NCBI RefSeq assembly: GCF_003048905.1
Contig: NZ_PIRO01000006.1
Coordinates: 1 to 64,000, forward strand
From: Campylobacter concisus
GTDB lineage: Bacteria > Campylobacterota > Campylobacteria > Campylobacterales > Campylobacteraceae
DNA length: 64,000 nt
Reading direction: 5' to 3'
Positions 38,056 to 55,526 of the stretch are shown piece after piece (within the stretch, counting starts at the first letter, position 1; each line of letters starts with the position of its first letter). A program made the translations under genes and the position numbers. The notes below the pieces were generated by a model, which saw only the letters and a list, made by a program, of their open reading frames with translations, was not told where the DNA came from and did no database searches.

Positions 38056-38819
38056 ACGAGCTAAAGAGCCTTTTAGACTCACACGTACTTAGTAAAAATA
38101 CAAATCTGGGGCTGTTTGAAGCCCCAGATCCACTTCAGGTAGCCACTAAATTTAAAGAGCCAAACATAGCGCTCATTTGTGCGTTATTTGCTTATGGTAA
38201 TGCAAAAATGATAGTGAAATTTCTAAATTCGCTTAATTTTGGTTTGCTTGATGAGAGTGAGCAAAATATCAAGAAAAATTTATCAAATTTTAAATACCGC
38301 TTTCAAAATGAAAATGATGTGAGAGAAATTTTTATCACTATCTCACGCCTTAAAAAAGAGGGCGAGATAGAGGAAATTTTACGCCAAGGTCTTGCAAAAA
38401 ATGGCGAAATGATAGATGGCGTAAATGAGCTTATTAAATTTATATATAAGCTAAATTCTTACCGCTCTGACGGATATGAGTTTTTCTTTGGTAAGAGTTT
38501 TGATAGGGAGCCACAAAGCCCATATAAACGCTATAACATGTATCTTCGCTGGATGGTTAGAGATAGCGATATTGACCTTGGACTATTTAAAAATTTGCCA
38601 AAAAATAGACTTTTGATACCGCTTGATGTGCATACACATAGAGTTTCTTTAAATTTAGGACTTATAAATAGAAAAAGCTACGATTTCAAAGCAGTCATGG
38701 ATCTTACAAAAAAACTTAGAGAATTTGACGAGTTAGACCCAATAAAATACGACTTTGCACTTTATAGAATAGGGCAGAGTAAAGAGTTAGAAACTATCGT
38801 AAAAAATCTTAATCAATAA
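38052..38819 (+). CDS. TIGR02757-family protein
   Basis: The 255-residue protein matches a family of unknown function found in epsilonproteobacteria and Bacteroidetes, by the block ALICALFAYGNAKMIVKFLNS near the start, the YKRYNMYLRWMVRDSDIDLG block and the LIPLDVHTHRVSLNLGL block near residue 197. The helical layout resembles DNA glycosylases with a helix-hairpin-helix, but the catalytic residues are not confirmed. It overlaps flgK by 4 bp, though it is probably unrelated to motility. Confidence 0.7.
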   Translation: MNELKSLLDSHVLSKNTNLGLFEAPDPLQVATKFKEPNIALICALFAYGNAKMIVKFLNSLNFGLLDESEQNIKKNLSNFKYRFQNENDVREIFITISRLKKEGEIEEILRQGLAKNGEMIDGVNELIKFIYKLNSYRSDGYEFFFGKSFDREPQSPYKRYNMYLRWMVRDSDIDLGLFKNLPKNRLLIPLDVHTHRVSLNLGLINRKSYDFKAVMDLTKKLREFDELDPIKYDFALYRIGQSKELETIVKNLNQ

Positions 38820-38885
38820 AAATTATTGCTAAATTTTTAAATTTAGGGTAGACTTGCCATACAATTTTATCCACAAGGAGCTTGT

Positions 38886-39422
38886 ATGAAAAAAATCGTT
38901 TTACTAAGTGCAGTTTTAGGAACTTTGCTTTTTGCTCACGAAGGTCATCACTTTGATGCGAAAGCTGGAGAGCATCTAGTTATACCTGTTAATGAGTTAA
39001 GCGAGAAGGGCGATAAGAGTGTCGGCGAAGTAGTAGCTGTTAAGACAAACTATGGCGTTGCATTTTTTCCAAATTTAAAAGGACTTACTGCAGGACTACA
39101 CGGCTTTCACATCCATGAAAATGCTGACTGTGGTGCGACTGAAAAAGGCCTTGGTATGAAAGCAGGCGGCCACTGGGATCCAGCTGGTACAAAAATGCAC
39201 TCTTTTGCCTGGGATGATAAAGGTCACAAAGGCGATTTGCCAGCACTTTACGTAGATGCTGAGGGCAATGCGAACTATCCAGTGCTAGCCCCAAAGATAA
39301 AAAGTCTTGACGAGCTAAAAGGTCACTCATTAATGGTTCATGTTGGTGGTGATAATCACAGCGACAATCCAAAAGCACTTGGCGGTGGCGGTGCTAGAAT
39401 GCTTTGTGGCGTTATTAAGTAA
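38886..39422 (+). CDS. sodC: Periplasmic Cu/Zn superoxide dismutase
   Basis: The 178-residue enzyme has a signal peptide (residues 1-17, ending LLFA) followed by a His-rich mature start. The copper/zinc site is built from the [11 protein letters not shown] block, GGHWDPAG and VGGDNHSD. The conserved cysteines (in ENADC and LCGVIK) form the structural disulphide. It removes superoxide in the periplasm, which is common in pathogens that meet host phagocytes. It is a single-gene unit with an AAGGAG ribosome site. Confidence 0.96.
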
Positions 39423-39432
39423 TCACTTTAAT

Positions 39433-39467
39433 AAACGAGTCTTTGAGCTAGATCTAAAGGCTCGTTT
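39433..39467 (+). terminator. Possible terminator after sodC
   Basis: AAACGAG (39433..39439) and CTCGTTT (39461..39467) pair perfectly, and CTTT/AAAG extends the stem by four pairs after a one-base mismatch. The tail is AAATTT, so the T-run is weak. Confidence 0.45.
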
Positions 39468-39575
39468 AAATTTATAAATTTCAAAAATCTCTCATTTTAA
39501 ATATAAAAATTTTACAAAAAGATAAGTACAAATAAATTACAATCTACTTTTATTTCAATTATCAAAAGAGCAAAA

Positions 39576-40337
39576 ATGGATTTTGATCTACTTAGTTATG
39601 TCGTTTTTTTTATAGCTGCGTTTTTAGGTGGTTTTATTGATTCTATCGCTGGTGGAGGTGGGCTTATAACGCTTCCAGCTATTATGGCGATGGGCGTGCC
39701 ACCACACCTTGCACTTGGTACAAATAAGCTTCAAGGTGTCTTTGGTAGCTTTACAGCGACTTTAAATTTCACAAAACGGGGATTAATTAATTATAAAGAG
39801 TGCTTTGTAGGTATCATCTTTACTTTTATTGGAGCTATCATCGGAGCGGTGGTTATCCTATTTTTAAATACAAATTTTTTAAAGATAATTATCCCATTTT
39901 TACTGATTGCTATTTTTATCTATACGCTTTTTATGCCAAAAGTCGGCGAAAATGATAGAGCTGCAAAGATGAATGAAAAACTATTTTATGTAGTTTTTGG
40001 ACTAATGCTTGGCTTTTATGATGGTTTTTTTGGTCCAGGAACAGGCTCTTTTTGGACATTTGCGATAGTGGCATTAATTGGGCTAAATTTAAAAAAAGCT
40101 GTAGCTCATACGAAACTCTTAAATTTTACTAGCAATATCGTTGCTCTTGGCATTTTTATAGCCGGTGGACAGATGCTTTGGGCTGTTGGACTTTTGATGG
40201 CAGTTGGTCAAATTTTAGGCGCATATTTTGGATCAAATCTTGTCATTAAAAAAGAGGTAAAATTTATTAGAACAATGTTTCTAGTGGTAGTAGCAGTGAC
40301 CATTTGTAAATTGATTTTCGATTATTTCAGAGTTTAA
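39576..40337 (+). CDS. TauE/SafE-family sulphite/anion exporter
   Basis: The 253-residue membrane protein has about eight helices. Conserved features are the N-terminal DSIAGGGGLITLPAIM, GTNKLQGVFGSF and, after the centre, GFYDGFFGPGTGSF. These define the TSUP (TauE/SafE) family of anion transporters, which may export sulphite, sulphonates or organic acids. The substrate cannot be told from sequence. A TACAAT -10 lies about 32 bp upstream of its ATG, so it is likely transcribed alone. Confidence 0.85.
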   Translation: MDFDLLSYVVFFIAAFLGGFIDSIAGGGGLITLPAIMAMGVPPHLALGTNKLQGVFGSFTATLNFTKRGLINYKECFVGIIFTFIGAIIGAVVILFLNTNFLKIIIPFLLIAIFIYTLFMPKVGENDRAAKMNEKLFYVVFGLMLGFYDGFFGPGTGSFWTFAIVALIGLNLKKAVAHTKLLNFTSNIVALGIFIAGGQMLWAVGLLMAVGQILGAYFGSNLVIKKEVKFIRTMFLVVVAVTICKLIFDYFRV

Positions 40338-40402
40338 AATTAAAAATGTTTTAACAATAATTTTGTTACAATCACGCAAAATTCTAAATCCAAGGTAAAT
40401 TA

Positions 40403-41086
40403 ATGAAAGATTTGTTTCTATTTTCAAATTTCCTAAATAGCTCCCACGCCTTTATCTATGCGTTTCACTTTCTGCTTGTAGCTTTGATTGTTATCATAGT
40501 TGCTTATATAGCAAGGAGCAAAATGCAGCTTGTGCCAAGAGGTCTTCAAAATATAGTTGAAGCTTATTTGGAGGGCGTTATATCGATGGGAAGAGATACT
40601 TTAGGCAGTGAAAAACTAGCTAGGAAATATCTTCCACTTGTTGCAACTATCGGTTTTATCGTATTTTTTTCAAATGTTGTAGGTATTATTCCTGGATTTG
40701 AGTCACCAACATCAAGTCTAAATTTAACTCTAGTTTTGGCTTTGGTTGTATTTATTTATTACAACTTTGAGGGCATTAGAGAAAATGGATTTTTCAAGTA
40801 CTTTGGACACTTTATGGGGCCTAATAAATTTCTAGCTCCTATTATGTTTCCAGTTGAAGTCATCTCGCATCTTTCACGTGTAGTTTCGCTATCATTTCGT
40901 CTTTTTGGTAATATCAAGGGTGATGATCTATTCTTGCTAGCGATGCTTACACTTGCACCTTGGTTTGCTCCACTTCCAGCTTTTGCGCTTCTAACGCTTA
41001 TGGCTGTTTTGCAAACATTTATCTTTATGATGCTAACTTACGTTTATCTAGCCGGTGCCGTTGCTATTAGTGAGCACGAGCATTAA
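40403..41086 (+). CDS. atpB: ATP synthase F0 subunit a
   Basis: This 227-residue protein forms the proton half-channel of ATP synthase. Helices fill most of the length. The conserved Arg lies in the [15 protein letters not shown] segment (about 168-182) and faces the c-ring. It is separate from the other atp genes, as in other Campylobacter. A TACAAT -10 (40367..40372) and a strong terminator at 41092..41117 bracket it as a single-gene unit. Confidence 0.96.
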
Positions 41087-41091
41087 AATTT

Positions 41092-41117
41092 AAAGCCATA
41101 TTTTTATATGGCTTTTT
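41092..41117 (+). terminator. Rho-independent terminator of atpB
   Basis: AAAGCCATAT and ATATGGCTTT pair over 10 bp with a 4-base loop, followed by a T-run. It is one of the cleanest terminators in the window. Confidence 0.85.
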
Positions 41118-41250
41118 CCTTTTTAAAACTATTTAAATTTTTAAATCACATTCTTTATTTTTCCAGTCAAAACGCTCATTTTTAGATATTTTAAAAGAAA
41201 GTATCGCTAAAATACGCCTTAAAAATTTGTATAAATTTAAAGGTAAAAAT

Positions 41251-42672
41251 ATGTTTGAAGTCGTTATTGGTTTAGAAGTTCACACTCAGCTTAATACAAA
41301 AACTAAAATTTTCTGCTCTTGCTCAACTAGCTTCGGCGATGAGGCAAATACTCATGTTTGCCCAACTTGCCTAGCACTTCCTGGAGCGCTACCTGTGCTA
41401 AACAAAGAGGCTGTAAAAAAGGCTATCAGTTTTGGCACAGCGATAAATGCTAAGATCAATAAAAAATCAGTCTTTAATAGAAAAAACTACTTCTATCCAG
41501 ACCTTCCAAAGGCATATCAAATTTCTCAGTTTGAGATACCTATCGTTGAAGGTGGCGAGCTAATTATCGACGTAAATGGCACTAAAAAACGCATAGGTGT
41601 AACAAGAGCACACCTTGAAGAGGATGCTGGCAAGAACATCCACGAAGAAACCGAGAGTCTGGTTGATCTAAACAGAGCCGGCACACCACTTCTTGAGATA
41701 GTTAGTGAGCCAGATCTTAGAAGCAGCGATGAGGCGGTGGCTTATCTTAAAAAACTACACTCAATCCTTCGCTTTTTAAATATAAGTGATGCAAATATGC
41801 AGGAAGGTAGCTTTCGCTGCGACGCAAACGTCTCTATCCGTCCAAAAGGCGATACCAAGCTTTATACAAGGGTTGAGATAAAAAATCTAAACTCATTTAA
41901 ATTTATCCAAAAGGCGATTGACTACGAAGTAGAGCGCCAAAGTGCAGCTTGGGAAGATGGTAAATACGACCAAGAAGTCTATCAAGAGACAAGGCTGTTT
42001 GACACGACAAATTTAGTGACAAGATCTATGCGTGGCAAAGAGGATAGCGCGGAGTATAGATACTTTCCTGACCCTGATTTGCTGCCAGTTGAGATATCAG
42101 AAGATATGTATAACGAAGCGATAAAAATTCCAGAGCTTGCCGAGCAAAAGGTCGCAAGATATGTTAGCGAGCTAGGCGTAAAAGAGAGTGATGCGCTAAA
42201 TTTAACTCAAAGCGTTGAGATGGCTAGATATTTTGAAGAGTTGATCGCTACTGGAATTCAGCCAAAACTAGCTACTACATGGCTTATAGTCGAGCTTCTT
42301 GGCCGCTTAAATAACGGCGTAACGATCGAGACAAGCCCAGTTAATAGTGCTAAAATGATAAATTTACTAAAACGCATAGAAGATGGAACGATAAGCGGCA
42401 AGGCTGCAAAAGAGGTTCTAGACTACCTAATGGAAAATGACGCGGACGTCGATAGTGTCATCGAAAAGCTTGGCTTAAAACAAGTGAGCGACGACTCAGC
42501 GATTATTGCGATCATAGATCAAATTTTGGTTGCAAATACTGACAAAGTCGAAGAGTATAAAAACGGCAAAGATAAGATGTTTGGCTTCTTTGTCGGTCAG
42601 GTGATGAAAGAGGGCAAGGGTGCCTTTAATCCAGGCAAGGTCAATGAGCTTTTAAAGGCCAAAATAGGCTAA
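41251..42672 (+). CDS. gatB: Aspartyl/glutamyl-tRNA amidotransferase subunit B
   Basis: This is the kinase-like subunit of GatCAB, which converts Glu-tRNA-Gln and Asp-tRNA-Asn to the amidated forms. It begins [14 protein letters not shown], the family start, and has the zinc-binding CSCSTSF plus CPTCL pairs (about 25-45). A C-terminal tRNA-binding YqeY-like tail (about 390-473) ends [16 protein letters not shown]. The ATG at 41251 follows an AAGG site; a TTG 24 bases earlier is less likely. gpsA follows 12 bp downstream. Confidence 0.97.
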
Positions 42673-42684
42673 AAAAGGGCTAAA

Positions 42685-43575
42685 ATGAGCATAGCAGTCA
42701 TCGGAGCTGGCAAGTGGGGCAGTGCGCTTTTTCACGCATTTAGTGAAAATAACGAGTGTGTCATCAGCTCAAGAACGCCAAGAGACATGCTAAATTTTGT
42801 AAGCTTGGATGAAGCCTTGGAGTGCGAATATCTAGTCTGCACGATCCCAACGCAAGCTACAAATTTATGGCTAAAGCAAAACTACAAAAACAAAGGTCAA
42901 AAGATCCTAGTCGCTAGCAAGGGCATAGACACGGCAAATCTTAAATTTTTAAATGAAATTTACGAGGATTTTGTTGATAGAGAAAATTTAGCCTTTCTTT
43001 CAGGGCCGACCTTTGCAAAAGAGATCATGCAAAAGCTGCCTTGCGCCTTGGTGATAAATTCTAAAAACCAAAATTTAGCTTCAAAATTTGCCTCATTTTT
43101 CCCAAGCTACATGAAAGCATATACCTCTGATGACGTGATCGGTGCTGAAGTGTGCGGGGCGTATAAAAACGTGATCGCCATAGCTGGCGGCATCTGTGAC
43201 GGCCTTGGTCTTGGCAACAACGCAAGGGCAAGTCTCATTTCACGTGGGCTTGTCGAGATGGCTAGATTTGGCAAATTTTTTGGTGCAAAAGACGAGACAT
43301 TTATGGGGCTAAGCGGCGCAGGGGATCTTTTCTTGACCGCTTCATCGATACTTTCACGCAACTACCGCGTAGGTCTTGGCATCGCAAGGCACGAGAGATT
43401 AGAGAAAATTTTAAATGAGCTTGGCGAGGTGGCAGAGGGCGTCGATACTGCAAGGGCTATTAGCAAGATCGCTAAAGAAAAGGGCATATACGTGCCGATT
43501 GCCAGTGAGGTTGAAAATATGCTAAATGGCAAAGACGTTTTTGAGAGCGTAAAATCGCTTTTGGGAAGAAGATGA
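42685..43575 (+). CDS. gpsA: Glycerol-3-phosphate dehydrogenase [NAD(P)+]
   Basis: The 296-residue enzyme reduces dihydroxyacetone phosphate to sn-glycerol-3-phosphate for phospholipid synthesis. Motifs are the N-terminal GAGKWGSALF nucleotide fold, FLSGPTFAKEI, the catalytic-lysine block CGAYKNVIAIAGGICDGLGLG and GLSGAGDLFLT. At about 296 residues it is slightly short of the E. coli enzyme (339) but full for Campylobacter. It overlaps nagZ by 4 bp. Confidence 0.96.
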   Translation: MSIAVIGAGKWGSALFHAFSENNECVISSRTPRDMLNFVSLDEALECEYLVCTIPTQATNLWLKQNYKNKGQKILVASKGIDTANLKFLNEIYEDFVDRENLAFLSGPTFAKEIMQKLPCALVINSKNQNLASKFASFFPSYMKAYTSDDVIGAEVCGAYKNVIAIAGGICDGLGLGNNARASLISRGLVEMARFGKFFGAKDETFMGLSGAGDLFLTASSILSRNYRVGLGIARHERLEKILNELGEVAEGVDTARAISKIAKEKGIYVPIASEVENMLNGKDVFESVKSLLGRR

Positions 43576-44627
43576 AAACTTTTAAATTTATACTTTTTGT
43601 GGCTATTTTTGCTCTGGGGCTAAACGGCGCTGAAGTGAGCCTAAGAGCCAAAATCTCGCAGATGATAATGGTTGGTTTTAACGGAGCTAGCACAAAGGAC
43701 GCTGCGTTTCGCGCGATGTTAAGCGACGCTGGATACGAGAGATTTGGCGGAGTAATACTACTTGGCAGAAATGTCACCAATAAAGCCCAGTTAAAAGCTA
43801 GCATAAAAGCTATCAAAGAGAAAAGTCCTAAAATTTTCATCGCTATCGACGAAGAGGGTGGCAACGTAAGCCGTATGAAGGATAAGAGCTTTGAGGGCCC
43901 GTATCCTAGCGCATACGAGGTCGCAAGCACGCTTGATATCAAAAGCGCTTATGATCTCTACTCAAAAATGGCTATAAATTTAAAGGAGTGTGGCATAAAT
44001 TTAAATTTCGCCCCAGTGGTTGATCTGCACGACGAAAACTCGCCGATAATTGCTGCAAAGCAAAGGGCGTTTAGCGAGTATGCAAGCAAGGTAGTGATCT
44101 ACGCTGATGCCTTTATGGACGCATTTAAAGAGCAGGGCATCCTAACGACACTTAAGCATTTTCCAGGGCATGGTAGCTCAAAAGAGGACTCGCATAAAAA
44201 TAAGAGTGAGGTCACGCTAAGTAAAGATGCACTTTTGCCATATAAAGACGCCATAAGCACTGGTAGAGCGCAGATCATCATGGTCGGACACCTTTTTGTA
44301 AAGGGCATCGACGAGGACAATCCAGCCACACTTTCTAAAAAAATAATAACCGATCTCTTGCGAAATGAGCTTAAATTTAATGGCGTAGTCATCAGCGATG
44401 ATATGCTGATGAAAGGCGTTGGCGACGAAGCTTTGGCTCAAAAAGTGGTGAAATTTATAAACGCTGGTGGCGACATCTTGCTCTTTAGCGAGTTCAAGAT
44501 AAATAACCAAAGAACGGCCGATCTAGTCGCTCAAATCATAGTTGATGCAGTAAACGAGAAAAAGATCAGCAAAGAGCGAATCGATGCTTCATATAAGAGG
44601 ATAATGGCTCTAAAAGCGAAGCTTTAA
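43572..44627 (+). CDS. nagZ: Beta-N-acetylhexosaminidase (glycoside hydrolase family 3)
   Basis: The 351-residue protein has an N-terminal signal-like segment (about 1-18), so it may be exported rather than cytosolic. The GH3 catalytic region shows AIDEEGGNVSRMK, KHFPGHGSSKEDSH (the His/Asp acid-base loop) and ISDDMLMKGV with the nucleophile Asp. It removes GlcNAc from peptidoglycan fragments. It is convergent with the mcrC gene, 15 bp apart. Confidence 0.9.
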   Translation: MKTFKFILFVAIFALGLNGAEVSLRAKISQMIMVGFNGASTKDAAFRAMLSDAGYERFGGVILLGRNVTNKAQLKASIKAIKEKSPKIFIAIDEEGGNVSRMKDKSFEGPYPSAYEVASTLDIKSAYDLYSKMAINLKECGINLNFAPVVDLHDENSPIIAAKQRAFSEYASKVVIYADAFMDAFKEQGILTTLKHFPGHGSSKEDSHKNKSEVTLSKDALLPYKDAISTGRAQIIMVGHLFVKGIDEDNPATLSKKIITDLLRNELKFNGVVISDDMLMKGVGDEALAQKVVKFINAGGDILLFSEFKINNQRTADLVAQIIVDAVNEKKISKERIDASYKRIMALKAKL

Positions 44628-44642
44628 ATTTGACTTTTAAAG

Positions 44643-45836
44643 TTATGTTAGTAAATTTGCGTTATTTTCATCTTTTTCAAGATCAAAATATAAAATTTCA
44701 AGTTGCATATTTTTTTCATATTCAAATTTCATAGGCTCTTGTTGTATGCCGTCTATCTTTGGATAGATGAGGTATAGCTTGCCGTCACACTGATGCTTTT
44801 TTCCGTAAGCATATAGCTGATACAAGTCGGCTTGTGAGATATCATCTTTTGAGCTTATGATTTTCCATTTTGTGTCGGCTATAAATTTGCCTTCTAAAAA
44901 TATATCAGGTCTCAGTTTGAAGCTTTGTGGATTTTCTACGAGGTATTTTTCTGAGTGTTGTAAAATAGTGCATGGAAAGCTTTTCTTTATAAAATTTCCA
45001 ACATAGCTTTCAAAGAGTGCATTCATATCAAATAGCAAAGCAAAGGCTAGATCATCGCCCTTGTGCGGAGTAAAAGAGTTGCCAAGCAAAAAGATCTTGC
45101 ACCATAAAAGAGTTTGCTCGTAGTGCTTTACTTGGCGGTTTATGACAAGCTTTGCAAAGAAATTTTTATAATCCTCACGCTCCGAAACCTCATCAAATAT
45201 AAATAAAAGCTCGCGTATTTTTTGCTGATTTTTACTAGAATTTGACTTTTTGTATAGAAATTTAAGCGTCATTTTTATGATCCTATTTATCTTTATATCG
45301 CTTAAAAATTCGCTGTATCCTACGTAAAACCGCTCTTTGTGGATGCTATTCCTTTTGATCTGCTCGTTTATATTAAGCTTTCCTTTTAGGAAATTTAGGT
45401 TCTCCTCTAACGCCACATAGTCGCTTTTTATCCCCTTTTTTACAAGAGCTTCAAGCTCACTTAAAAACATATAGATGAAAATTTCCAAAAGCGGTAAATT
45501 TTGTATTTTTAAACTGGCTAAATTTGAGCTTTTAAATGGGAAATTTTTTAACGTCTTTAGCATTTTTATAAAAACCGCTTTTGATCTTTCGGCGTCGGTT
45601 TTGTCTGCTATTTTTGGCAAAATTTCTATCGTTAAGCCACTTTTTGTCTGCAAAACACCGACATAGTTTCTAGCCTGTATAAATTTTCCACCAACCCCGC
45701 TTGCTATCCTTAAAAACGGAGCATTTTCATCGCTATTTTTAAGGATAAAATTTTCTATATCGTCAAAGTCTTTTTTGCCTACATCATGTTGATATATACG
45801 CTCAAACTCAGTTATCGTTAGCTGACTTTGCTTCAT
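44643..45836 (-). CDS. mcrC: McrC-type subunit of a type IV restriction system (nuclease)
   Basis: The 397-residue McrC homologue has an N-terminal domain that binds the McrB ring (about 1-170) and a C-terminal PD-(D/E)xK nuclease. The catalytic residues can be read: Asp311 (LRPDIF) and Asp321-x-Lys323 (ADTK), followed by the family block QADLYQLYAYGKKHQC. It supplies the cutting activity once the McrB motor has located modified DNA. The gene overlaps mcrB by 29 bp, a typical two-gene unit. Composition is somewhat more AT-rich than the surrounding genes. Confidence 0.92.
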   Translation of the reverse strand: MKQSQLTITEFERIYQHDVGKKDFDDIENFILKNSDENAPFLRIASGVGGKFIQARNYVGVLQTKSGLTIEILPKIADKTDAERSKAVFIKMLKTLKNFPFKSSNLASLKIQNLPLLEIFIYMFLSELEALVKKGIKSDYVALEENLNFLKGKLNINEQIKRNSIHKERFYVGYSEFLSDIKINRIIKMTLKFLYKKSNSSKNQQKIRELLFIFDEVSEREDYKNFFAKLVINRQVKHYEQTLLWCKIFLLGNSFTPHKGDDLAFALLFDMNALFESYVGNFIKKSFPCTILQHSEKYLVENPQSFKLRPDIFLEGKFIADTKWKIISSKDDISQADLYQLYAYGKKHQCDGKLYLIYPKIDGIQQEPMKFEYEKNMQLEILYFDLEKDENNANLLT

Positions 45837-47850
45837 CTACTTGACTACTTGTTAAATTGTAAATTTTTAGATAGTTTTGCTCATCATAAAAAGCTTCTTT
45901 ATCTATTTCGTATAAAATTTTGTCGTTTATGTAGTCAGTGCCACTTTTAAATAAAGCATTTTCTGGCTTCTTTTCTTTGATAAATTGACTATAGCCTAAA
46001 ACAAGCCTTATTTTTTCCCAATCATCATAAAAATACTCCTGCAGTAGCGGTAAAATTTTATTTTCAAAGATCGAGGCTAGCTCTTCTATATCAGCGCCAT
46101 CTTTTAGCGACATAAAATAGGCGTGTCCTATCGTATGATCTCTGTCGTAAAGATATTCTATACGCTCGTTTATAGTTTTTAGCATAGTATTAAAATCTAT
46201 CTCGATTTCTTTAGGATCAATATCCTTATCCTTATATTTTATTTTAATGGTTCCCAAAAGCTCAGGTTGTGGCATCATTTCGACAAATTCAAATCTTCTT
46301 CTAAGTGCCGTATCCATGAGGGCTATACTTCGATCCGCCGTATTCATCGTGCCTATGATGTATAAATTTGACTGTACTCCAAATTTCTCTTTTGAGTATG
46401 GTAGCTCAACCATTATCTCGTCATCTGCCCCGAGCCTTTTTGATGGCTCTATAAGAGTTATGAGCTCACCAAAAATTTTAGATATATTCCCGCGATTGAT
46501 CTCGTCGATGATTAAGACATAGTTTTTAGAGCTATTATCTACTATGTATTTTTGTATATCTAGCCTCATGTCATCAATTATCTTTGGTTCATATGATGAA
46601 TATGTGTACTCTTCACCATCAAACAATACTCTTTTAAGCTTGCTGTATGCGACAGACATGGGCGACGAACCGTTTTTTGCGCGAACGACTATAGATGGAG
46701 TTGTGTTTTTATATAGATAAAATTCATACCCAGTTTGAGTAGTTAAAACTTTACTTGATGGCGATGTAGAGTATTCTGGTAAAGTCAAAACATAGCTATC
46801 GTATAGCTCCTTAAAATTCTCCTCATTTATGATTTTGTTGTCATCTTTTGTTTTTACTATTATCTCATTTTTCTTTTTTGCTACTTGGCATAGAGCCTTA
46901 AATACGCCATCCTCTACTTCGTATTTCAAATTTCCGTTGGTATCATTTTTAGCCTTAATCCCCTCGACAAATTCTTCATATCCATAGCTTTGATGAAATG
47001 TGATAAATTTTATTTGTCCTTTTTCTACATACTCTTTAAATTTAGATCTATCATCAGAAGCATTGCCTTCTATTATTTCTAGTGCTTTACGAACAACGCT
47101 ATATGTCTTTCCAGTTCCAGGAGGACCGTATAAAATTTGATTTAGTGATAAAATTTCTCTTTTTTGTTGTAAAGTGTCATTCTTTTCTAAAGTCATATCT
47201 TTATCAGTATCCTCATTGTTTAATATGTAGTTTATACTTTTTTGCGATTTTATTTCACGTTTACCTTGGATATTTTTAAGATTTTCGTATTTGTCTAAAA
47301 TTATTCGAGATAACTTATTTTGATTTGTAAATTTTAAGAATCTTAGATAAATAGTGCGTTTGTCTTGTGAAATATTTTCCACTTCTGCTTTCACTACAAT
47401 AGCAGCAATCGGCTCACCTGAATAAATATAAACAATATCTCCTTCTTTAATTTCTGAAAGCTGTAAATATCCATCTTTTCTTTCATTGTCCCATTGAGTA
47501 ATATTGTTTTGCTTAAATTCTTCAATAGAATCAAATATTTCTTTTTTATTTGTAAATACCCAATATCGTTTCATATTCGCCTCGCTATTTTTAAATTCTA
47601 TATATTTATTTACTGCTGAATTATAGTCAGTAAAAAGCTTTTTGGTTTTTCCAGATTTTAAAAACTCTTCTTCTAAATATTTTGGGTTTTTACTTTTTGA
47701 GTTGTAATAATCAAAAATAGAGTAAACTTTATTTTCTTCTAAAAATCTAATAAAGCTTTTTAAAAAAGATTGATAGGATTGAGCGGAGTTTTTGCCTATT
47801 TCTTTTTCGCAGTAAGCCTTGAAATTTTCATAATCTATATATTCATTCAT
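45808..47850 (-). CDS. mcrB: McrB-type AAA+ motor with EVE/PUA-like reader domain
   Basis: The 680-residue protein has three parts. Residues 1-90 are helical and resemble the SAM-like N-terminal domain of tyrosine integrases (SAQSYQSFLKSFIRFLEEN). Residues 95-212 form an EVE/PUA-like domain (RYWVFTNKKEIFDSI, then LSEIKEGDIVYIYSGEPIAA), the sort that binds modified cytosine or adenine. Residues 235-640 are the McrB GTPase: Walker A GPPGTGKT (242-249), HQSYGYEEFVEGI, Walker B LIIDEINRGN (446-455) and the signature NTADRS (503-508) with LRRRF. It hydrolyses GTP and drives the McrC nuclease. The 5' end is extremely AT-rich (21% GC in 47641..47760), a sign of transfer. Confidence 0.9.
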   Translation of the reverse strand: MNEYIDYENFKAYCEKEIGKNSAQSYQSFLKSFIRFLEENKVYSIFDYYNSKSKNPKYLEEEFLKSGKTKKLFTDYNSAVNKYIEFKNSEANMKRYWVFTNKKEIFDSIEEFKQNNITQWDNERKDGYLQLSEIKEGDIVYIYSGEPIAAIVVKAEVENISQDKRTIYLRFLKFTNQNKLSRIILDKYENLKNIQGKREIKSQKSINYILNNEDTDKDMTLEKNDTLQQKREILSLNQILYGPPGTGKTYSVVRKALEIIEGNASDDRSKFKEYVEKGQIKFITFHQSYGYEEFVEGIKAKNDTNGNLKYEVEDGVFKALCQVAKKKNEIIVKTKDDNKIINEENFKELYDSYVLTLPEYSTSPSSKVLTTQTGYEFYLYKNTTPSIVVRAKNGSSPMSVAYSKLKRVLFDGEEYTYSSYEPKIIDDMRLDIQKYIVDNSSKNYVLIIDEINRGNISKIFGELITLIEPSKRLGADDEIMVELPYSKEKFGVQSNLYIIGTMNTADRSIALMDTALRRRFEFVEMMPQPELLGTIKIKYKDKDIDPKEIEIDFNTMLKTINERIEYLYDRDHTIGHAYFMSLKDGADIEELASIFENKILPLLQEYFYDDWEKIRLVLGYSQFIKEKKPENALFKSGTDYINDKILYEIDKEAFYDEQNYLKIYNLTSSQVDEAKSANDN

Positions 47851-47897
47851 ATTTATTCCTTTAAATTTAAAATTTTATAAAATGTTTAGAGCCACTC

Positions 47898-48350
47898 TCA
47901 CAACCCATCAAATTCTTTTTTTAGTTCGTCCCTTAGCTCTTCGGCTCTATCTTCGCCATTTTTGAAATTTATCTTTATAAAGCTATCAAGCTCGTCCAAG
48001 ATCGCAAAGAGTTCGCTCTCCCAGCTTAAATTTTCTTTCTTTGATAAAGTTTCCAGTTTTTCTCTTATTTGCTCTAAGATATCTAATGCTTTATCTTTAC
48101 CAGACTCACTATTTAGCGCATCTTCAAATAAAATATCTTGCCTTAAGGCGTTTATTTTTTTAAATATTACGTTGCAAAATTTTGGATATTTCTCAGCATT
48201 GCTTAAATTTTCTAAAACCTCCTGTGCGGCCTTTTGATAAGCTGGCTCCGCTCCCTCTTCGTCGAGCTTTTTGGTTAGTTTTTGTATCTGAAAATATAAA
48301 ATAAGCGCTGCAAAAAACGCAAGCAGCAAATAAATCGTCACATTATTCAT
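47898..48350 (-). CDS. Membrane-anchored helical protein of unknown function
   Basis: The 150-residue protein has one N-terminal membrane helix (about 4-22, IYLLLAFFAALILYFQI) followed by about 125 charged, helical residues, partly coiled coil (KALDILEQIREKLETLSKK). I do not recognise it. It starts inside the end of the rarD-like gene (8 bp overlap) and lies 47 bp before mcrB on the same strand. It could belong to the permease transcript, or serve the restriction module as a regulator or effector; neither is shown. Confidence 0.55.
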   Translation of the reverse strand: MNNVTIYLLLAFFAALILYFQIQKLTKKLDEEGAEPAYQKAAQEVLENLSNAEKYPKFCNVIFKKINALRQDILFEDALNSESGKDKALDILEQIREKLETLSKKENLSWESELFAILDELDSFIKINFKNGEDRAEELRDELKKEFDGL

Positions 48351-49173
48351 TTTTACTCCTTTTTCTAAATTTATCTATGCTAATTATTGCGAGTGCCAGC
48401 CAGATCATACAAAACGAGATGACCTTGTAGCCGTCTAAATTTTCGCCGTAAATGAAGACCGCACAAAGGATCGCGATGGTTGGCGAGATGTATTGCAAAT
48501 AGCCAATCGTTGTTAAATTTATCCTTGTTGCCGCTGCGTTAAAAGCGACAAGCGGCACGATGGTTACGATGCTTGAAGCGATCATTAAAAGTGAGTCTTC
48601 ATTTAGTCCAAAGTGGCTTTTACCTAAAAATGCTATGTAAAAAACGTAGGCAAGTGCAAATGGGAACATAAAAAATGTCTCTATAAAAAGTCCGTTAAAT
48701 GCGCCAATCTTTGCCATCTTTCTAACTGCTGCGTAAAATCCAAATGAAAGCGGCAAGATAATGGAAACTAATGGCAATCCGCCTTGAGCATAAATTTGTA
48801 CGCTAATGGCTAAAACGACTATGCAAATGGCTAAAATTCCGCTTTTATTTAGCCTTTCTTTAAAGATGATAACACCAAGAAGCATGCTTATTAGTGGATT
48901 TATAAAATAGCCCAGGCTTGTGTCTAAAATTTTGCCATTGCTAACAGCATATACATAAACGCCCCAGTTTGTAGTGATAAATATACCACTCAAAAATAAG
49001 GTTTTTAGCGAACGAATATCTTTAAGTAAAGTAAAAATTTCGCCCATTTTGCCACTAAAATAAAGCACTCCAGCCATTAAGAAAAATGACCAAATGACCC
49101 TATGAGCTAAAATTTCATAAGCATCGACATCTTTGCTAAAGAGGTTGAAATAAACCGCCAAAAACCCCCACAT
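48343..49173 (-). CDS. RarD/EamA-type permease, start region damaged
   Basis: This 276-residue permease (from the internal ATG at 49173) has about nine helices and the RarD block EILAHRVIWSFFLMAGVLYFSG early on. The reading frame carries on upstream of that ATG with the expected start of the family (NESQKGVILALSAFF), but no ATG, GTG or TTG lies in frame before a TAA. An ATG overlapping the previous stop is out of frame. So the true start is lost or uses a rare codon; a small indel at 49211..49216 would explain it. Function is unknown: RarD proteins are named for chloramphenicol sensitivity. Confidence 0.7.
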   Translation of the reverse strand: MWGFLAVYFNLFSKDVDAYEILAHRVIWSFFLMAGVLYFSGKMGEIFTLLKDIRSLKTLFLSGIFITTNWGVYVYAVSNGKILDTSLGYFINPLISMLLGVIIFKERLNKSGILAICIVVLAISVQIYAQGGLPLVSIILPLSFGFYAAVRKMAKIGAFNGLFIETFFMFPFALAYVFYIAFLGKSHFGLNEDSLLMIASSIVTIVPLVAFNAAATRINLTTIGYLQYISPTIAILCAVFIYGENLDGYKVISFCMIWLALAIISIDKFRKRSKNE

Positions 49174-49213
49174 AAAAAAGGCGCTAAGCGCGAGAATAAC
49201 GCCTTTTTGGCTC

Positions 49214-50101
49214 TCATTTAGTCTTGGTATTTTTGTCGCCTTTTATAGAATTTATACTATCTATCATCAAAAGTGTGACCGAGATGGCTAGGCAGATCAT
49301 TAAAAAGTATGAGCTTTTCTCCAGTCTCTCGCCGATAGCAAATGAGACAAAAAGCATCATTATAGGCTCAAAATATGTAAGCAAACCTAGTACATTTATC
49401 GGCACGAGCGTGCTTGAGAGGATCTGGGCGATGAGGGCTATGCCGCTGATAGCACCAAGCAAGATGAGTAGATAGTAAATGTTTGGATTTTGGCTCATCA
49501 CGTAGTTCATATCGGCTGTGAGCGCAAAATAAAATGAGAATAAAAACATAAAAATTATCTCTATAACAAAGCTTGAGAAATTTGCAAGGTTGTAGTACTT
49601 TCTAATGGCAAAATAGACTGGATAAAGGCAAAAAACTACAGCGCTCTCCCACGAGATGCCGCCGCTTAGTATAGCTGTGCTAAAGACGCCAAGGGCTGCA
49701 AAAAATATCGAGGCTAGCTTTGTTTTAGAGAGGTGCTCTTTAAAAAATATCCGTCCAAAAAGGACCATGACTATTGGCATGATGAGGTAGCCGATAGAGA
49801 CTTTTAGCGCTGATCCGTTGCTTGGAGCCCAGAGATAGAGCCACATCTGAAATGAGACAATGAGCGAGGTAGCTAGTAAAACTAGTAAAATTTTAGGTTT
49901 TAGCTTTATTTTTAGAAGTAAAAATTTGAAATTTCGCTGCTGTTTTAACAAAAAAATGGCTGCGATGACAAAAGGCATGGCAAAGATCATGCGGTATCCA
50001 ACAAGAGCTTGCGTGCTGATGGGGTTCATGAGCACTGACATGTAGTAGATGCAGTTAAACAAAACAGATGCCAAAAGCGAATAAAATATGCCTTTTATCA
50101 T
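49214..50101 (-). CDS. EamA/RarD-type DMT-superfamily permease
   Basis: The protein has about 295 residues with ten predicted helices and the RarD-type block (ALVGYRMIFAMPFVIAAIFLL). The ATG at 50101 (MIKGIFYSLLA) is preferred: an AAGGAG site is 12 bases upstream, whereas a longer form from a TTG at 50152 has an unusual hydrophilic lead and no site. It is a paralogue of the next gene downstream (about 40 bp away), with which it shares orientation. The substrate is unknown. Confidence 0.82.
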   Translation of the reverse strand: MIKGIFYSLLASVLFNCIYYMSVLMNPISTQALVGYRMIFAMPFVIAAIFLLKQQRNFKFLLLKIKLKPKILLVLLATSLIVSFQMWLYLWAPSNGSALKVSIGYLIMPIVMVLFGRIFFKEHLSKTKLASIFFAALGVFSTAILSGGISWESAVVFCLYPVYFAIRKYYNLANFSSFVIEIIFMFLFSFYFALTADMNYVMSQNPNIYYLLILLGAISGIALIAQILSSTLVPINVLGLLTYFEPIMMLFVSFAIGERLEKSSYFLMICLAISVTLLMIDSINSIKGDKNTKTK

Positions 50102-50202
50102 GAAAAAATTCTGCTCCTTTTTGGGTAAATTTAAAGTAGCGATTGTAGGCAAAATATCTTTAATAGCCCATTAATGGCTTTTATTTTTTAAGTTTGCCGT
50201 GA

Positions 50203-50208
50203 TATAAT
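50203..50208 (+). promoter_or_regulatory. -10 element of the DAHP synthase gene
   Basis: A perfect TATAAT 38 bp before the aroF ATG in the divergent region with the EamA permease. No -35 is seen. Confidence 0.5.
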
Positions 50209-50245
50209 CAGCGTCTAATTTAAGGCAAAAAAGATAGGAAAATAA

Positions 50246-51586
50246 ATGACTTGGAACCACGATAGCTGGAGAGAATTTAGTATCTTGCAACAACCAAAAT
50301 ACCCAGATTTAAAAGAGCTTAAAGAGGTCGAAGAAAAATTAAAATCACTTCCTCCTTTGGTATTTGCTGGTGAGGCTAGAAGTTTAAAAGAAGAACTTGC
50401 AAAAGTTTGTAATGGCGAGGCATTTTTGCTTCAAGGTGGCGACTGCGCTGAGAGCTTTACAAATTTTAATGCAAACAACATCAGAGATATGTTTAAGGTT
50501 TTACTTCAAATGGCGATAGTTTTAACCTTTGCTGGTGGCTATCCAGTGGTCAAAGTGGGCCGCGTGGCAGGGCAGTTTGCAAAGCCTAGAAGTAGCGATT
50601 TTGAAGAGGTAAATGGCGTTAAGCTTCCAAGCTATAGAGGTGACATCATAAATGGCTTTGAATTTGACGAAAAGGCAAGAGTGCCTGATCCAAAACGCAT
50701 GATCGAGGCGTATTATCAAAGTGCATCTACGATGAACTTACTTAGAGCCTTTTCAAGAGGCGGTTTGGCCGACCTTCATCAAGTGCATAAGTGGAATTTA
50801 GGCTTTGTTAAAAAGCCAGAGATCGGCGAGAAATACGCAAAACTAGCTGATGAGCTAACAAAGACGCTTTCATTTATGGCAGCTTGTGGCATCACTTCAG
50901 CAAATACGCCAGTCATAAATCAAACCGCGGTTTATACATCTCACGAGGCGCTTTTGCTACCTTATGAGGAGGCATTGACTAGGGTTGATAGTCTTAGTGG
51001 TGAGTGGTATGACTGCTCGGCTCACATGCTTTGGATAGGTGAGAGAACACGTGGTATAAACGACGCTCACGTACATTTTTTAAGCGGCGTGAAAAATCCT
51101 ATTGGCGTGAAGATCGGACCAAGTGCAAAGGCTGAAGATGTCGTCGCACTTGCAAATAAGCTAAATCCAGAAAATGAAGCTGGCAGACTAAACGTGATAA
51201 TCAGAATGGGTGCTGATAAGATAGGCGAAAATTTACCAAAAATTTTAAGAGAGCTAAAGAGAGAAGGGCTAAATATCGTTTATAGTATCGATCCGATGCA
51301 TGGCAACACCGTAAAAACCTCAAATAACTACAAAACCAGAGAATTTGACAAGATAATAAGCGAAGTTAGAAGCTTTTTTGAAATTCACAAAGCTGAGGGC
51401 ACAAGGGCTGGCGGCGTACATCTTGAGATGACAGGACAAGACGTGACTGAGTGCACGGGTGGGGCATTAAATATCACTGAAAGCTCGCTTGAGCAAAGGT
51501 ATGAAACACAATGTGATCCAAGACTAAATGCTGATCAGGCACTTGAACTTGCGTTTTTGATGGCTGGTCTAGTTAAAAAAGCTTAA
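50246..51586 (+). CDS. aroF: 3-deoxy-7-phosphoheptulonate synthase, class II
   Basis: This 446-residue plant/mycobacterial-type (class II) DAHP synthase makes the first shikimate intermediate from PEP and erythrose-4-phosphate. The block QGGDCAESF (about 67-75) has the metal Cys, followed by [16 protein letters not shown] and [11 protein letters not shown]. The substrate arginine is in [10 protein letters not shown]. The C-terminal [13 protein letters not shown] and [11 protein letters not shown] complete the active site. It stands first in a plus-strand run. Confidence 0.96.
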
Positions 51587-51610
51587 AATTTATAAAATTT
51601 GGAGAAAAAG

Positions 51611-52567
51611 ATGGTAAATGTTTATGATCTAATCGTTGTTGGTGGCGGACCCTGTGGAATTGCTAGCGTAGTTGAGGCAAAAAGAAATGGCTTAAACAAC
51701 GTTTTGCTTCTTGAAAAAGGCGATAATCACAGCCAAACGATAAGAAAATTTTATAAAGATAATAAACGCGTAGATAAAGAGTATAAAGGGCAAGATAGCA
51801 CGATACATGGCGTAGTTTCATTTGAGGATGGCACGAAAGAGAGCACGCTTGATTATTTTGACAAGCTGCTTGATACTGAAAAGATCGAAGCTTTTTTTAA
51901 CTCTGAAGTAGAGAGCGTGAAAAAAGATGGAGAAAATTTTAAAGTAACTACCTCAAAAGCCGTCTATGAAGCTAAAAATGTGATGATATCAATTGGCAAA
52001 ATGGGACGACCAAATAAGCCTGATTATAAAATCCCGCCTTCACTAAACTCAGTTGTAAATTTTAACCTTGATAGCTGTACGAACGGCGAAAAGGTGCTTG
52101 TTGTAGGTGGCGGAAACTCAGCAGTTGAGTATGCGATCGAGCTTTGCCAATACAATAAAACCACAATCGCTTATAGAAAAGATAATTTTAGCCGCGTAAA
52201 TGAGACAAATTTAAGTGCACTTTGGGAGCTAGAAAAGCATGGTAAGATAAAAGTTAGACTAAATCACGATATAAAAGAGATAGATAACGAATCAGGCAAA
52301 GTTAGAGTGCATTACGAAAATGGCAAAATTCGTGTTTATGACAGAGTTGTCTATGCGATCGGTGGCTCAAGTCCGGTTGATTTTTTACAAAAATGTCAGA
52401 TAAAAATCGATGAAAAAGGTACTCCAATAGTTGATAGTAGTTACCAAAGTAGCGTGCCAGGACTTTATGTGGGTGGTGATATCGTGCTAAAAAATGGCGG
52501 CTCAATAGTCGTTGCTCTAAATCACGCTCATCACGTCATAAAAGACATTTTAAAGGGCAAGGCATAA
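51611..52567 (+). CDS. TrxB/YpdA-like NAD(P)H-flavin oxidoreductase
   Basis: The 318-residue protein has an N-terminal FAD motif (VVGGGPCGIASV, about 8-19) and a second Rossmann motif (LVVGGGNSAVEYAIEL, about 163-178), as in thioredoxin reductases and YpdA. The redox CxxC pair of thioredoxin reductase is missing: only lone cysteines appear. It may therefore reduce a disulphide-independent partner such as ferredoxin, a low-molecular-weight thiol or another quinone/flavin acceptor. GGAG 6 bases before the ATG fixes the start; a TTG 12 bases upstream is unlikely. Confidence 0.78.
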   Translation: MVNVYDLIVVGGGPCGIASVVEAKRNGLNNVLLLEKGDNHSQTIRKFYKDNKRVDKEYKGQDSTIHGVVSFEDGTKESTLDYFDKLLDTEKIEAFFNSEVESVKKDGENFKVTTSKAVYEAKNVMISIGKMGRPNKPDYKIPPSLNSVVNFNLDSCTNGEKVLVVGGGNSAVEYAIELCQYNKTTIAYRKDNFSRVNETNLSALWELEKHGKIKVRLNHDIKEIDNESGKVRVHYENGKIRVYDRVVYAIGGSSPVDFLQKCQIKIDEKGTPIVDSSYQSSVPGLYVGGDIVLKNGGSIVVALNHAHHVIKDILKGKA

Positions 52568-52569
52568 GC

Positions 52570-54822
52570 TTGATAAATAAAATTTTACTAGCTATTTTTT
52601 GTTTGATAGCTGGCTTTTGCCTATCGTTTTTTAAATCTCCAAAAGAAGATGAGACACCAAAAGATACTAATCAAACGATTTATTCTATAAATTTTGATAA
52701 TTTGCCAGAAGAAGAGAGACAAAAATATATCAGCAAAGACGATCTTTACGAATATGGCGGATATATAACTCCAAAAAGCTATATCCAAAATTTTACTGAA
52801 ACGAACGATCAAAATTTATCAAATGATGTAAATGAACTTCAAGAACAAGTTCGTGAGCTAAGTAAAAAAAATAAAATTTTAGCTACTGATAATGTCGATA
52901 TCAGCGAGAAAAATTTAGACTTTATAAGCAAAATTTCAGAGATGAAAAAAAATATCGAAAATGAAAAAAATGAGATAGTTGAAAAAAATCAAAAGACGCT
53001 AGGCGAGCTTGAAGCACAACATTTTGAAAATATACAAACTCTCACAAAACGGCTAAATGAAGCTCAAGCTGATATGATAGAGAGCTCAAAAGCCTATGAA
53101 AAAAAGATAATAGACCTTGAAAATGCGATAAATGAGGCAAAAAATGGCGATGAAAGTAAGGTAAAAGATATCGAAGCAAATTTTGCTAAATTTAAAGAGG
53201 CAGCTGAGGCAAATTACACAGCTTTAAAAGAGCAAAATATAGAGCTAAATACGACGCTGGCTCAAAAAGACGCGCTAATAAAAGAGTATGAAAATACTCA
53301 AAATGAAAAAGATAAAAACGAAAAAAGAGAAATTTTGCTTTTAAAAGAGGAGATCGAGCGAGCAAAAAATGACGCTAAGACACAAAAATTTAGCTATGAA
53401 AAAGAGATAAATGCACTAACTGATGGCTTTGAAACACAAAAAAGTGTTATGGAGGATGAGCTTTCAAAAAAGGCAAATAAGATAATTGATCTTGAGGAAG
53501 CGCTTGAGTCAAATCAAACTGCCTTAAAAGATAGAATTTATGAGCTTGATGAGATAAAGAAAAATTTAAACTCAAAAGATTTGGCAGTTGAAAACTATAA
53601 TGGTAAAAATTTAGAGCTAAACGCCTCTCTTGCGGCACTTCATAAAAGTTTTAATGATTTAAAAGAAAAAAATCTTAAAAGCGAGCAGGAAAATAAACTC
53701 GCAAATGAAAATATAAATTCGCTTAAAAAAGAGCTTGAGCGAGTAAATTTGATAAATAAAAAGCTAGAGAAGCAAACTTTAGATGCAAATGCAAGTTTAA
53801 GTGAGCTAAATAAAAAGCTAAATTTGAGTGAAGAGAGCCTTAAAAATGCACGAGATGAACTAAAGACGCTTGATACAAAGACAAATAAATTTTTAAAAAC
53901 TTTATTTGAGCAAAATCAAACTATCTCTTTGCAGACTCAAAAGCTTGGGTTAAATGACAGCGAGTTGAAAAATTTAAGTGCAAAGATAAATTTAAAAGAT
54001 GAAAAGATAAAAGAGCTGGAAAATAATCTCACGCAAACAAGTCAAACGCTAGCAGCAAAGCAAAGTGAGCTAGAAGCTCAAAAAAGAACGCTAAAGATCG
54101 ATATGCAAAATTATGAAATTTTGCGTCAGCAAATAAATATTTTGCAAAAGAAGATAGCTGATACGTCGGCTCTTTTTGCTGATAGCAATAAAAGTGGCGG
54201 TAAAAATTTACTAAGCTTACAAAATGAGCTTGAAAGTGCAAAACATAAGTTAAACGAGAGCAATAAGACGATTGAGAGGTTAAATTCTAAAATAAATGAA
54301 CTTAGCTCATCTAGCGTAAAAGGAAGTCCAGTAAATGCCAAGATCATCGAACTTCAAAAAGATATCGAGCAAAATTTAAACAGGCAAGATGAGCTTGAAA
54401 ATGAAAATGTAAATTTAAAAAATATCTTGCAGGCGACAACTAAGCCAGAGACGCCAACAAAGCTAGTTTTGATCTCTAGTCTTGAGTGCGATGACATGGA
54501 CGCAAAAGATAAGGTTAGCGTGATGTGTAAGAATAGAGTGAGCGAATTTTTGCAAAGATTTAACTCAAACTACCTTTATGAGATAATTCCGATCGTAGAT
54601 AAGAAAAATTTTGTCATCCCATCAAATGTGGCTCAAAGCATCAAAAAAGACGATCTTGGCAGGCTAAATAGCTATGTAAATTATGGCGTTGGCAAAGAGC
54701 GTGCAAAGGCAGCAGCCGAGCTTATAAAAGAAGAATTTGGCGATTTTGCAAGGATCAGCTTTAGCTCAGAAGTGATCGTAAAAGATGTCACGCGCGGCTT
54801 TATCATCAAGGTTTATAGATGA
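52570..54822 (+). CDS. Large membrane-anchored coiled-coil protein
   Basis: The 750-residue protein begins with one membrane helix (about 4-18, ILLAIFCLIAGFCL), then a long, almost continuous coiled coil (about 85-625) rich in Glu, Lys, Asn, Leu. The final 120 residues form a globular domain: SLECDDMDAKDK, then GVGKERAKAAAELIKEEFG and ISFSSEVIV. This last part recalls the OmpA-like fold, but the usual Asp and Arg peptidoglycan-binding residues are not clear. The protein probably spans from membrane to periplasmic wall. It starts at a TTG. It overlaps the methyltransferase gene by 4 bp. The function is not known. Confidence 0.7.
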   Translation: MINKILLAIFCLIAGFCLSFFKSPKEDETPKDTNQTIYSINFDNLPEEERQKYISKDDLYEYGGYITPKSYIQNFTETNDQNLSNDVNELQEQVRELSKKNKILATDNVDISEKNLDFISKISEMKKNIENEKNEIVEKNQKTLGELEAQHFENIQTLTKRLNEAQADMIESSKAYEKKIIDLENAINEAKNGDESKVKDIEANFAKFKEAAEANYTALKEQNIELNTTLAQKDALIKEYENTQNEKDKNEKREILLLKEEIERAKNDAKTQKFSYEKEINALTDGFETQKSVMEDELSKKANKIIDLEEALESNQTALKDRIYELDEIKKNLNSKDLAVENYNGKNLELNASLAALHKSFNDLKEKNLKSEQENKLANENINSLKKELERVNLINKKLEKQTLDANASLSELNKKLNLSEESLKNARDELKTLDTKTNKFLKTLFEQNQTISLQTQKLGLNDSELKNLSAKINLKDEKIKELENNLTQTSQTLAAKQSELEAQKRTLKIDMQNYEILRQQINILQKKIADTSALFADSNKSGGKNLLSLQNELESAKHKLNESNKTIERLNSKINELSSSSVKGSPVNAKIIELQKDIEQNLNRQDELENENVNLKNILQATTKPETPTKLVLISSLECDDMDAKDKVSVMCKNRVSEFLQRFNSNYLYEIIPIVDKKNFVIPSNVAQSIKKDDLGRLNSYVNYGVGKERAKAAAELIKEEFGDFARISFSSEVIVKDVTRGFIIKVYR

Positions 54823-55526
54823 TCTTGGCTCAGCTAAAAAGTGGCTATCGCTACAACAGCGATACACTGGTACTTTATGATTTTATAAGCTCAAGTTTGA
54901 AAAATTTTTCTGGCAGGATTTTAGACGTTGGTGCAGGGTGCGGGATACTTGGGCTTTTACTTAAACGCGACTTTAAAAATTCCAGCCTAAGCTTGCTTGA
55001 TATCTTACAAATAAATGGTGAAATTTCTAAATTTAATGCCAGTAAGAACGGCTTGGAGGCAGAAATTATAAATGTTAATTTTGCAGATTTTAAAGATAGT
55101 GAGAAATTTGACCTCATCGTATCAAATCCGCCATTTTATCACGAGGGTGCAAAGCAGAGCGAAGATGAGCATATAAAGGCTAGTAGATACACAAGCTCTT
55201 TGGGTTTAAAAGACTTTATAAAAGGTATAAGTGTAAATTTAAAACCTCACAAAAGGGCGTTTTTTTGCTATGCACCTGATGATCTTAGTCAGATTGTAGC
55301 GTGCCTAAAAGAGTTTAAGCTAAATTTAGTAAGCCTAAAATTTATTCATACAAAGGCTGATAAACCAGCAAATTTAGCCTTGTTTGAGGTAAGAAATAAT
55401 TCAAACTCAAAGTTAAAAATTTTGCCACCTTTGGTAATGAGCGAAAATGGCTCGCATACAAAAGAGGCGATTGAAATTTTTAAAAAAGCTGATACAAAGA
55501 GCATCGATTATCAGGAGCTAGCGTGA
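54819..55526 (+). CDS. TrmN6-type N6-adenine methyltransferase
   Basis: The 235-residue SAM-dependent enzyme has motif I LDVGAGCGILGLLLKRD (about 36-52) and the catalytic NPPFY motif (SNPPFY, near residue 105) of N6-adenine enzymes. The layout matches the tRNA1(Val) A37 methyltransferase. It probably modifies tRNA. The start overlaps the coiled-coil gene by 4 bp and the stop overlaps the next gene by 4 bp. Confidence 0.8.
   Translation: MILAQLKSGYRYNSDTLVLYDFISSSLKNFSGRILDVGAGCGILGLLLKRDFKNSSLSLLDILQINGEISKFNASKNGLEAEIINVNFADFKDSEKFDLIVSNPPFYHEGAKQSEDEHIKASRYTSSLGLKDFIKGISVNLKPHKRAFFCYAPDDLSQIVACLKEFKLNLVSLKFIHTKADKPANLALFEVRNNSNSKLKILPPLVMSENGSHTKEAIEIFKKADTKSIDYQELA

Follow-up and report, generated by a model that had tools for sequence, protein, structure and literature searches.

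We describe a two-gene McrBC operon of Campylobacter concisus in which the McrB protein combines a predicted SAM-like helical domain of the tyrosine-recombinase core-binding type, an EVE domain and an insertion (INS) within its AAA+ GTPase. The operon lies in the stretch of DNA that was analysed, here called the window, which comprises positions 1 to 64,000 of contig NZ_PIRO01000006.1 (assembly GCF_003048905.1). On balance we judge it probable that the pair constitutes a modification-dependent type IV McrBC restriction system whose reading apparatus is composite and exchangeable. Comparison with the corresponding loci of relatives shows the site to be a defence hotspot, at which strains, as read from their sequences, swap putative reader modules and keep the GTPase-McrC core. 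The features are collected in Table 1.

Table 1. Features of the McrBC locus, in window coordinates
Feature	Position	Strand	Basis or remark
Left flank, glycoside-hydrolase-like gene	43572..44627	plus	present in 26/26 neighbour loci
mcrC, 397 aa, PD-(D/E)xK nuclease	44643..45836	minus	PF10117 6.8e-92; PD at aa 310-311, DTK at aa 321-323
mcrB, 680 aa	45808..47850	minus	SAM-like + EVE head, McrB GTPase (AAA+), INS inside GTPase
NTAD (NxxD signature), aa 503-506	46333..46344	minus	groups with the E. coli enzyme rather than with the NxD clade
DEINRG (Walker B region), aa 449-454	46489..46506	minus	motif
INS, aa 331-436, in GTPase between FHQSYGYEEFVEG and Walker B	46543..46860	minus	unclassified alpha/beta fold; overlooked in the first-pass annotation
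Walker A GPPGTGKT, aa 242-249	47104..47127	minus	motif
EVE domain (PUA superfamily), aa 93-222	47185..47574	minus	PF01878, profile, Foldseek; C-terminal NIQGKR conserved
Predicted internal start, GAGG + 5 nt + ATG at Met93, SAM/EVE border	47572..47583	minus	equivalent SD-ATG sites in other alleles
SAM-like helical domain (tyrosine-recombinase core-binding type, predicted), aa 1-92	47575..47850	minus	PF02899 in homologues, AF2 model, profile matches
Right flank, 150-aa protein of unknown function	47898..48350	minus	

The McrBC operon and its composite McrB

The mcrB reading frame is complete and opens with an ATG preceded by AAAGGA, and its product matches the McrB chains of the PDB, which are solved McrB GTPases, at an E-value of 1e-65. 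It displays both the Walker A and B motifs and the Nx(xx)D motif of the McrB GTPases, with the clade distinction between NxxD and NxD being that of PMC11090510. The intact mcrC gene lies 3' of mcrB in the same operon, overlaps it by 29 nt, supplies the PD-(D/E)xK nuclease expected of a McrC partner, and is the sole PF10117 gene of the host genome. No repeat tract in either gene exceeds seven bases.

The second part of the head, for which the first-pass annotation had proposed an EVE/PUA domain at residues 95-212, is indeed an EVE domain, with borders slightly wider than first drawn. Its PF01878 score of 23.7 bits (aa 93-223) exceeds the curated cut-off of 23 by a small margin, and a profile built from our alignment A2 matches 2ar1 (1.7e-7; PH1033 was also matched) and 2eve (0.007). 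Structure prediction, which that annotation had advised for residues 1-215, was carried out with AlphaFold2 on aa 1-235 from 19 sequences (pLDDT 86) and yielded a PUA-type fold preceded by five N-terminal helices; the top PDB matches of this model in Foldseek were 2ar1, 2gbs and 2eve, followed by ASCH and YTH structures. An iterative search with the EVE domain wandered to ribosomal protein S1 (L154-L176) and was discarded.

For the region in front of the EVE domain, the sequence comparisons make kinship with the core-binding domain of tyrosine recombinases likely, in keeping with the earlier proposal for residues 1-90. The helices of the model span residues 7-18, 20-39, 45-54, 58-65 and 70-91. 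The window protein itself scores 15.8 against PF02899 (Phage_int_SAM_1), below the cut-off of 22.3, which is reached by the heads of homologues (22.7 in L007; 23.8 in G027, the latter obtained when genomes were searched independently with PF02899). A profile built from ten of these heads retrieves the recombinase-like ORFs L232-L234 at 1e-4 to 6e-4, and two of these, L233 and L234, score above the cut-off for both PF00589 and PF02899 and are thus true tyrosine recombinases. Alignment of the head with recombinase domains by hhalign gave a probability of 68%, over 34 columns and in a shifted register, against 9.8% for the best of 100 column shuffles. Fold searches of the head against PDB and viral structures were dominated by the EVE domain, so they lend no direct support to the SAM-like domain; the viral search returned weak matches and no integrase. 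The catalytic domain PF00589 is absent from McrB in Pfam searches, leaving the grip domain alone, and no relatives of the head were found in searches of plasmids, phages and viral contigs. Several candidates were set aside: an iterative search seeded by the SAM-like domain that wandered to unrelated ORFs (L104-L113), an integrase (L103) matched mostly outside its SAM domain, and two MAG proteins (L005, L011) with a helical segment, EVE and McrB, whose N-termini were not recognised by the SAM profile.

The border between these two domains bears a predicted internal start. In E. coli the short form of McrB is made by internal initiation (PMC12707154), and most of the alleles that we compared, whatever their head, have, 15-20 codons before LYGPPG, an ATG that is in frame and accompanied by an AAGGA-like sequence. 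Among non-redundant McrBs a Shine-Dalgarno sequence accompanies 35 of 70 linker ATGs, whereas the count for the other internal ATGs is 34 of 705, statistics that are inflated by the relatedness of the alleles; outside this genus group the figures are 16/43 and 30/523 (p 1.4e-8, indicative only, as these sequences are likewise related). The linker ATG of the window protein has no well-spaced Shine-Dalgarno sequence, and the Met93 start sits where EVE begins and where the SAM-only alleles start internally. Given this placement of GAGG-N5-ATG, the EVE domain seems to have been added after the SAM-like domain together with a start of its own.

The segment that we term INS can be recognised as an insertion because relatives lacking it show an uninterrupted GTPase between FHQSYGYEEFVEG and Walker B. 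Pfam offers no match for it and the PDB sequences nothing convincing (best 0.005, to an unrelated polymerase), and its confidently modelled fold (pLDDT 85) finds nothing in the PDB below an E-value of 0.4. Within the phylum it turns up in 15 of 397 genomes, in varied positions: inside the GTPase (L003, L004, L006), behind a SAM-like domain (L115, L230), or N-terminally, with one more domain following it (L053, L184). As it lies in the GTPase here and in the head in relatives, it looks like an exchangeable module. L230 is a near mirror image of the window McrB, with a SAM-like + INS head and a module of another kind, the WKMSLG type, in its GTPase. Alignments mixing the SAM-like domain and INS, made for a combined fold model, were dropped, since they superimposed one domain on the other. 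INS-type modules were also observed in three proteins other than McrB (L187, L188, L189), which are 455-463 aa long and contain coiled-coil and membrane-like stretches. At L235:8160-11745 (G476), one or more GmrSD_N-type genes lie directly 3' of a McrBC whose head is SAM-like + INS, an arrangement reminiscent of the genes found in place of McrBC at the Campylobacter hotspot described below.

Module exchange at the locus

We compared 26 loci of relatives (L119-L144) that share the flanking genes of the window, the flanking proteins being 80-99% identical. Three of them are empty, with 116 bp between the left-flank and right-flank genes; four hold other restriction-type genes, namely GmrSD_N/DUF7834-type pairs (three loci) and an Eco57I-type methylase accompanied by one other gene (one locus). 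The remaining 19 carry McrBC in the same orientation as the window and between them show three types of head and at least three kinds of insert in the GTPase. The SAM-like domain sits directly on the GTPase in nine of these alleles, seven have a MISDDLK... type of head and three a MVSWQERL... type. Inserts in the GTPase comprise a stretch of about 130 aa after Walker A (six alleles), the WKMSLG module (three) and another (one). The first of these follows Walker A directly (L124, L130, L136, L139, L140, L142) and has no Pfam identity.

Homology with the window at the DNA level typically extends from the left flank across mcrC as far as about 46525, at Walker B, where it stops; it resumes at about 46941 and stops again at about 47170, at the edge of the P-loop. 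In the SAM-bearing alleles it picks up once more at about 47584. Such breaks recur at module edges across alleles. Among the hotspot loci compared, an EVE domain between SAM-like domain and GTPase is confined to the window allele. The search for the same domain order in other genomes, which the first-pass annotation had called for, found the SAM + EVE pairing, and likewise the full SAM + EVE + INS combination, only in the window McrB among the collections searched. That annotation had also regarded the N-terminal segment as unfamiliar; this holds for its pairing with EVE and not for the SAM-like head as such, which occurs without EVE in nine of the 26 neighbour loci. McrC, the allelic hotspot and the internal start at Met93 had, like INS, gone unnoticed there.

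The GTPase insertion of L119, L121, L138 and L147 was considered as a further EVE domain and rejected: it has neither Pfam nor PDB support, the hhalign probability of 88% covers 32 columns only, and we name it the WKMSLG module. L147:6612-8234 (G001), at another site, encodes a McrB with a WKMSLG-type module in its GTPase and an N-terminus that joins the first SAM-like residues to the last EVE residues in the manner of a deletion scar. Some alleles are interrupted, three in mcrB (L123, L134, L138) and one in mcrC (L142). Phase variation is not evident as the cause, there being no long repeat tracts at the breaks.

Tentatively, we propose that the reading apparatus has two slots, the head and the site in the GTPase beside Walker B. 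EVE, INS and WKMSLG-type modules might be shuffled between and within these slots, with a DNA grip of recombinase origin common to all, such that strains of one species complex would keep the motor-nuclease core and vary detection, much like the variation of HsdS in type I systems.

Proposed mechanism and rival explanations

McrB hexamers translocate DNA, driven by GTP, and McrC cuts it. Going by its sequence motifs and by the mechanism of the family, the window McrB would act as the GTP-driven translocase and McrC as the nuclease, and restriction of modified DNA is most likely their function, given what is known of the family. Most likely, the EVE domain would flip and hold a modified base in phage DNA entering the cell, as in VcaM4I; the SAM-like domain would grip the flanking duplex in the manner of a recombinase core-binding domain, adding affinity or sequence context; and INS, judging from its place-trading between head and GTPase, would serve, close to the motor, as a second reader or as a module contacting DNA. 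Initiation at Met93 is predicted to yield in addition a short EVE-GTPase form devoid of the SAM-like domain, a counterpart of McrB-S of E. coli. The host genome encodes a single C5-type cytosine methyltransferase (G000:C1:949075-950061, L237; PF00145 2.4e-85) and two N6-type methylase ORFs. The reader must therefore spare these marks, and a broad 5mC reader, which would lead to self-attack, is unlikely.

SAM-like helical folds are also known to mediate protein contacts, and the domain is the only head in nine relatives, which have no known modified-base reader in the head; it might thus serve as an oligomerisation or protein-contact module, for instance binding McrC or a phage protein, with EVE alone reading DNA. 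We regard this as less likely, because its sequence relatives are the DNA-binding core domains of tyrosine recombinases and it holds the head position that other alleles give to other putative specificity heads. It is somewhat easier to conceive of INS as a structural or regulatory insertion rather than a reader, a possible if not the favoured interpretation: INS sits in the AAA+ core beside Walker B, its fold matches no DNA-binding domain, and it is present also in the coiled-coil/membrane-like proteins L187-L189. Against this, it trades places with head modules (L115 and L230 have it behind a SAM-like domain, L053 at the N-terminus), the same insertion site is used by other putative specificity modules in sister alleles, and Bell et al. 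deem such GTPase insertions of McrB likely specificity domains (PMC11090510).

Two further rivals concern the target of the system as a whole. Domains of the EVE superfamily are able to bind RNA, which is also the predicted target of some McrB relatives (PMC11090510), so that an RNA target, or action through translation as in the CoCoNuTs, might be entertained; it appears very improbable, as the NxxD motif belongs to the E. coli-type groups and not to the NxD clade, Pfam searches show McrB to be without the coiled-coil and cold-shock domains that typify CoCoNuTs, and McrC is an ordinary PF10117 protein. The CoCoNuT combination of an NxD-clade GTPase, coiled coil and RNA-associated domains is accordingly absent. 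Scarcely more probable is a site-specific system akin to LlaJI, reading an unmodified sequence and needing partner methyltransferases: a recombinase-type SAM-like domain could read sequence, and LlaJI illustrates that McrB-like enzymes can do so (PMC12707154), but EVE is a family of modified-base readers and no methyltransferase gene, and hence no cognate partner, adjoins mcrBC among the ORFs at 38000-56000.

Relation to known systems and significance

The preferred reading, that of a modification-dependent McrBC, places the window system beside several known ones. With McrBC of E. coli K-12 it shares the NxxD AAA+ GTPase, the PD-(D/E)xK McrC, the two-gene operon and, by prediction, the internal start for a short McrB; whereas the head of the E. 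coli enzyme is DUF3578/ADAM, that of the window protein is SAM-like + EVE, and INS is added in the GTPase. Fusion of EVE to McrB is the commonest EVE defence fusion, often with extra domains (Bell et al. 2020, PMC7641849), and the window protein resembles these in having EVE in front of the GTPase. It differs from them in the SAM-like domain before EVE and the insertion in the GTPase, a combination unmentioned in the main text of that study. Hence the architecture singled out by the first-pass annotation is already described as regards the EVE-McrB fusion, while SAM + EVE + INS was not found in the main texts of the literature. A recombinase-type McrB head, INS and module-by-module swapping were likewise not found in the main texts, supplements apart, of the literature searched.

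The EVE-HNH endonuclease VcaM4I flips 5mC and 5hmC into a pocket formed by P24, W82 and Y130 (PMC7897488); it shares the EVE reader with the window McrB, a likeness drawn at the level of the domain rather than residue by residue in the pocket, and differs in having another nuclease and no GTPase. McrB of Thermococcus gammatolerans, whose YTH head reads 6mA, also has a head of the PUA superfamily, and YTH folds figure among the PDB matches of the window head, which by sequence is EVE; no SAM-like domain is reported for the T. gammatolerans protein in the literature searched. The tyrosine recombinases (XerH-like, PF02899/PF00589) have the core-binding SAM-like domain related to the window N-terminus, joined in their case to the catalytic integrase domain that the window protein lacks. 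In Campylobacter jejuni, deletion of mcrB rendered strain CAMSA2038 sensitive to 17 of 43 phages, and divergent McrB N-termini occupy one locus in two strains (PMC8713573). That study deals with the same family, with divergence at one chromosomal position and demonstrated restriction of phages; it compared two strains, without module structure.

The targets of McrB heads and the origin of new specificities constitute a largely open field, to which the putative recombinase-type grip domain and INS bring additions to the candidate sensors of modified DNA. The internal start of the short McrB is suggested to persist across very different heads. Moreover, as a single species complex offers some 20 natural alleles that share one core and differ by swapped modules, the targets of individual modules should become assignable by comparing alleles on the same phages.
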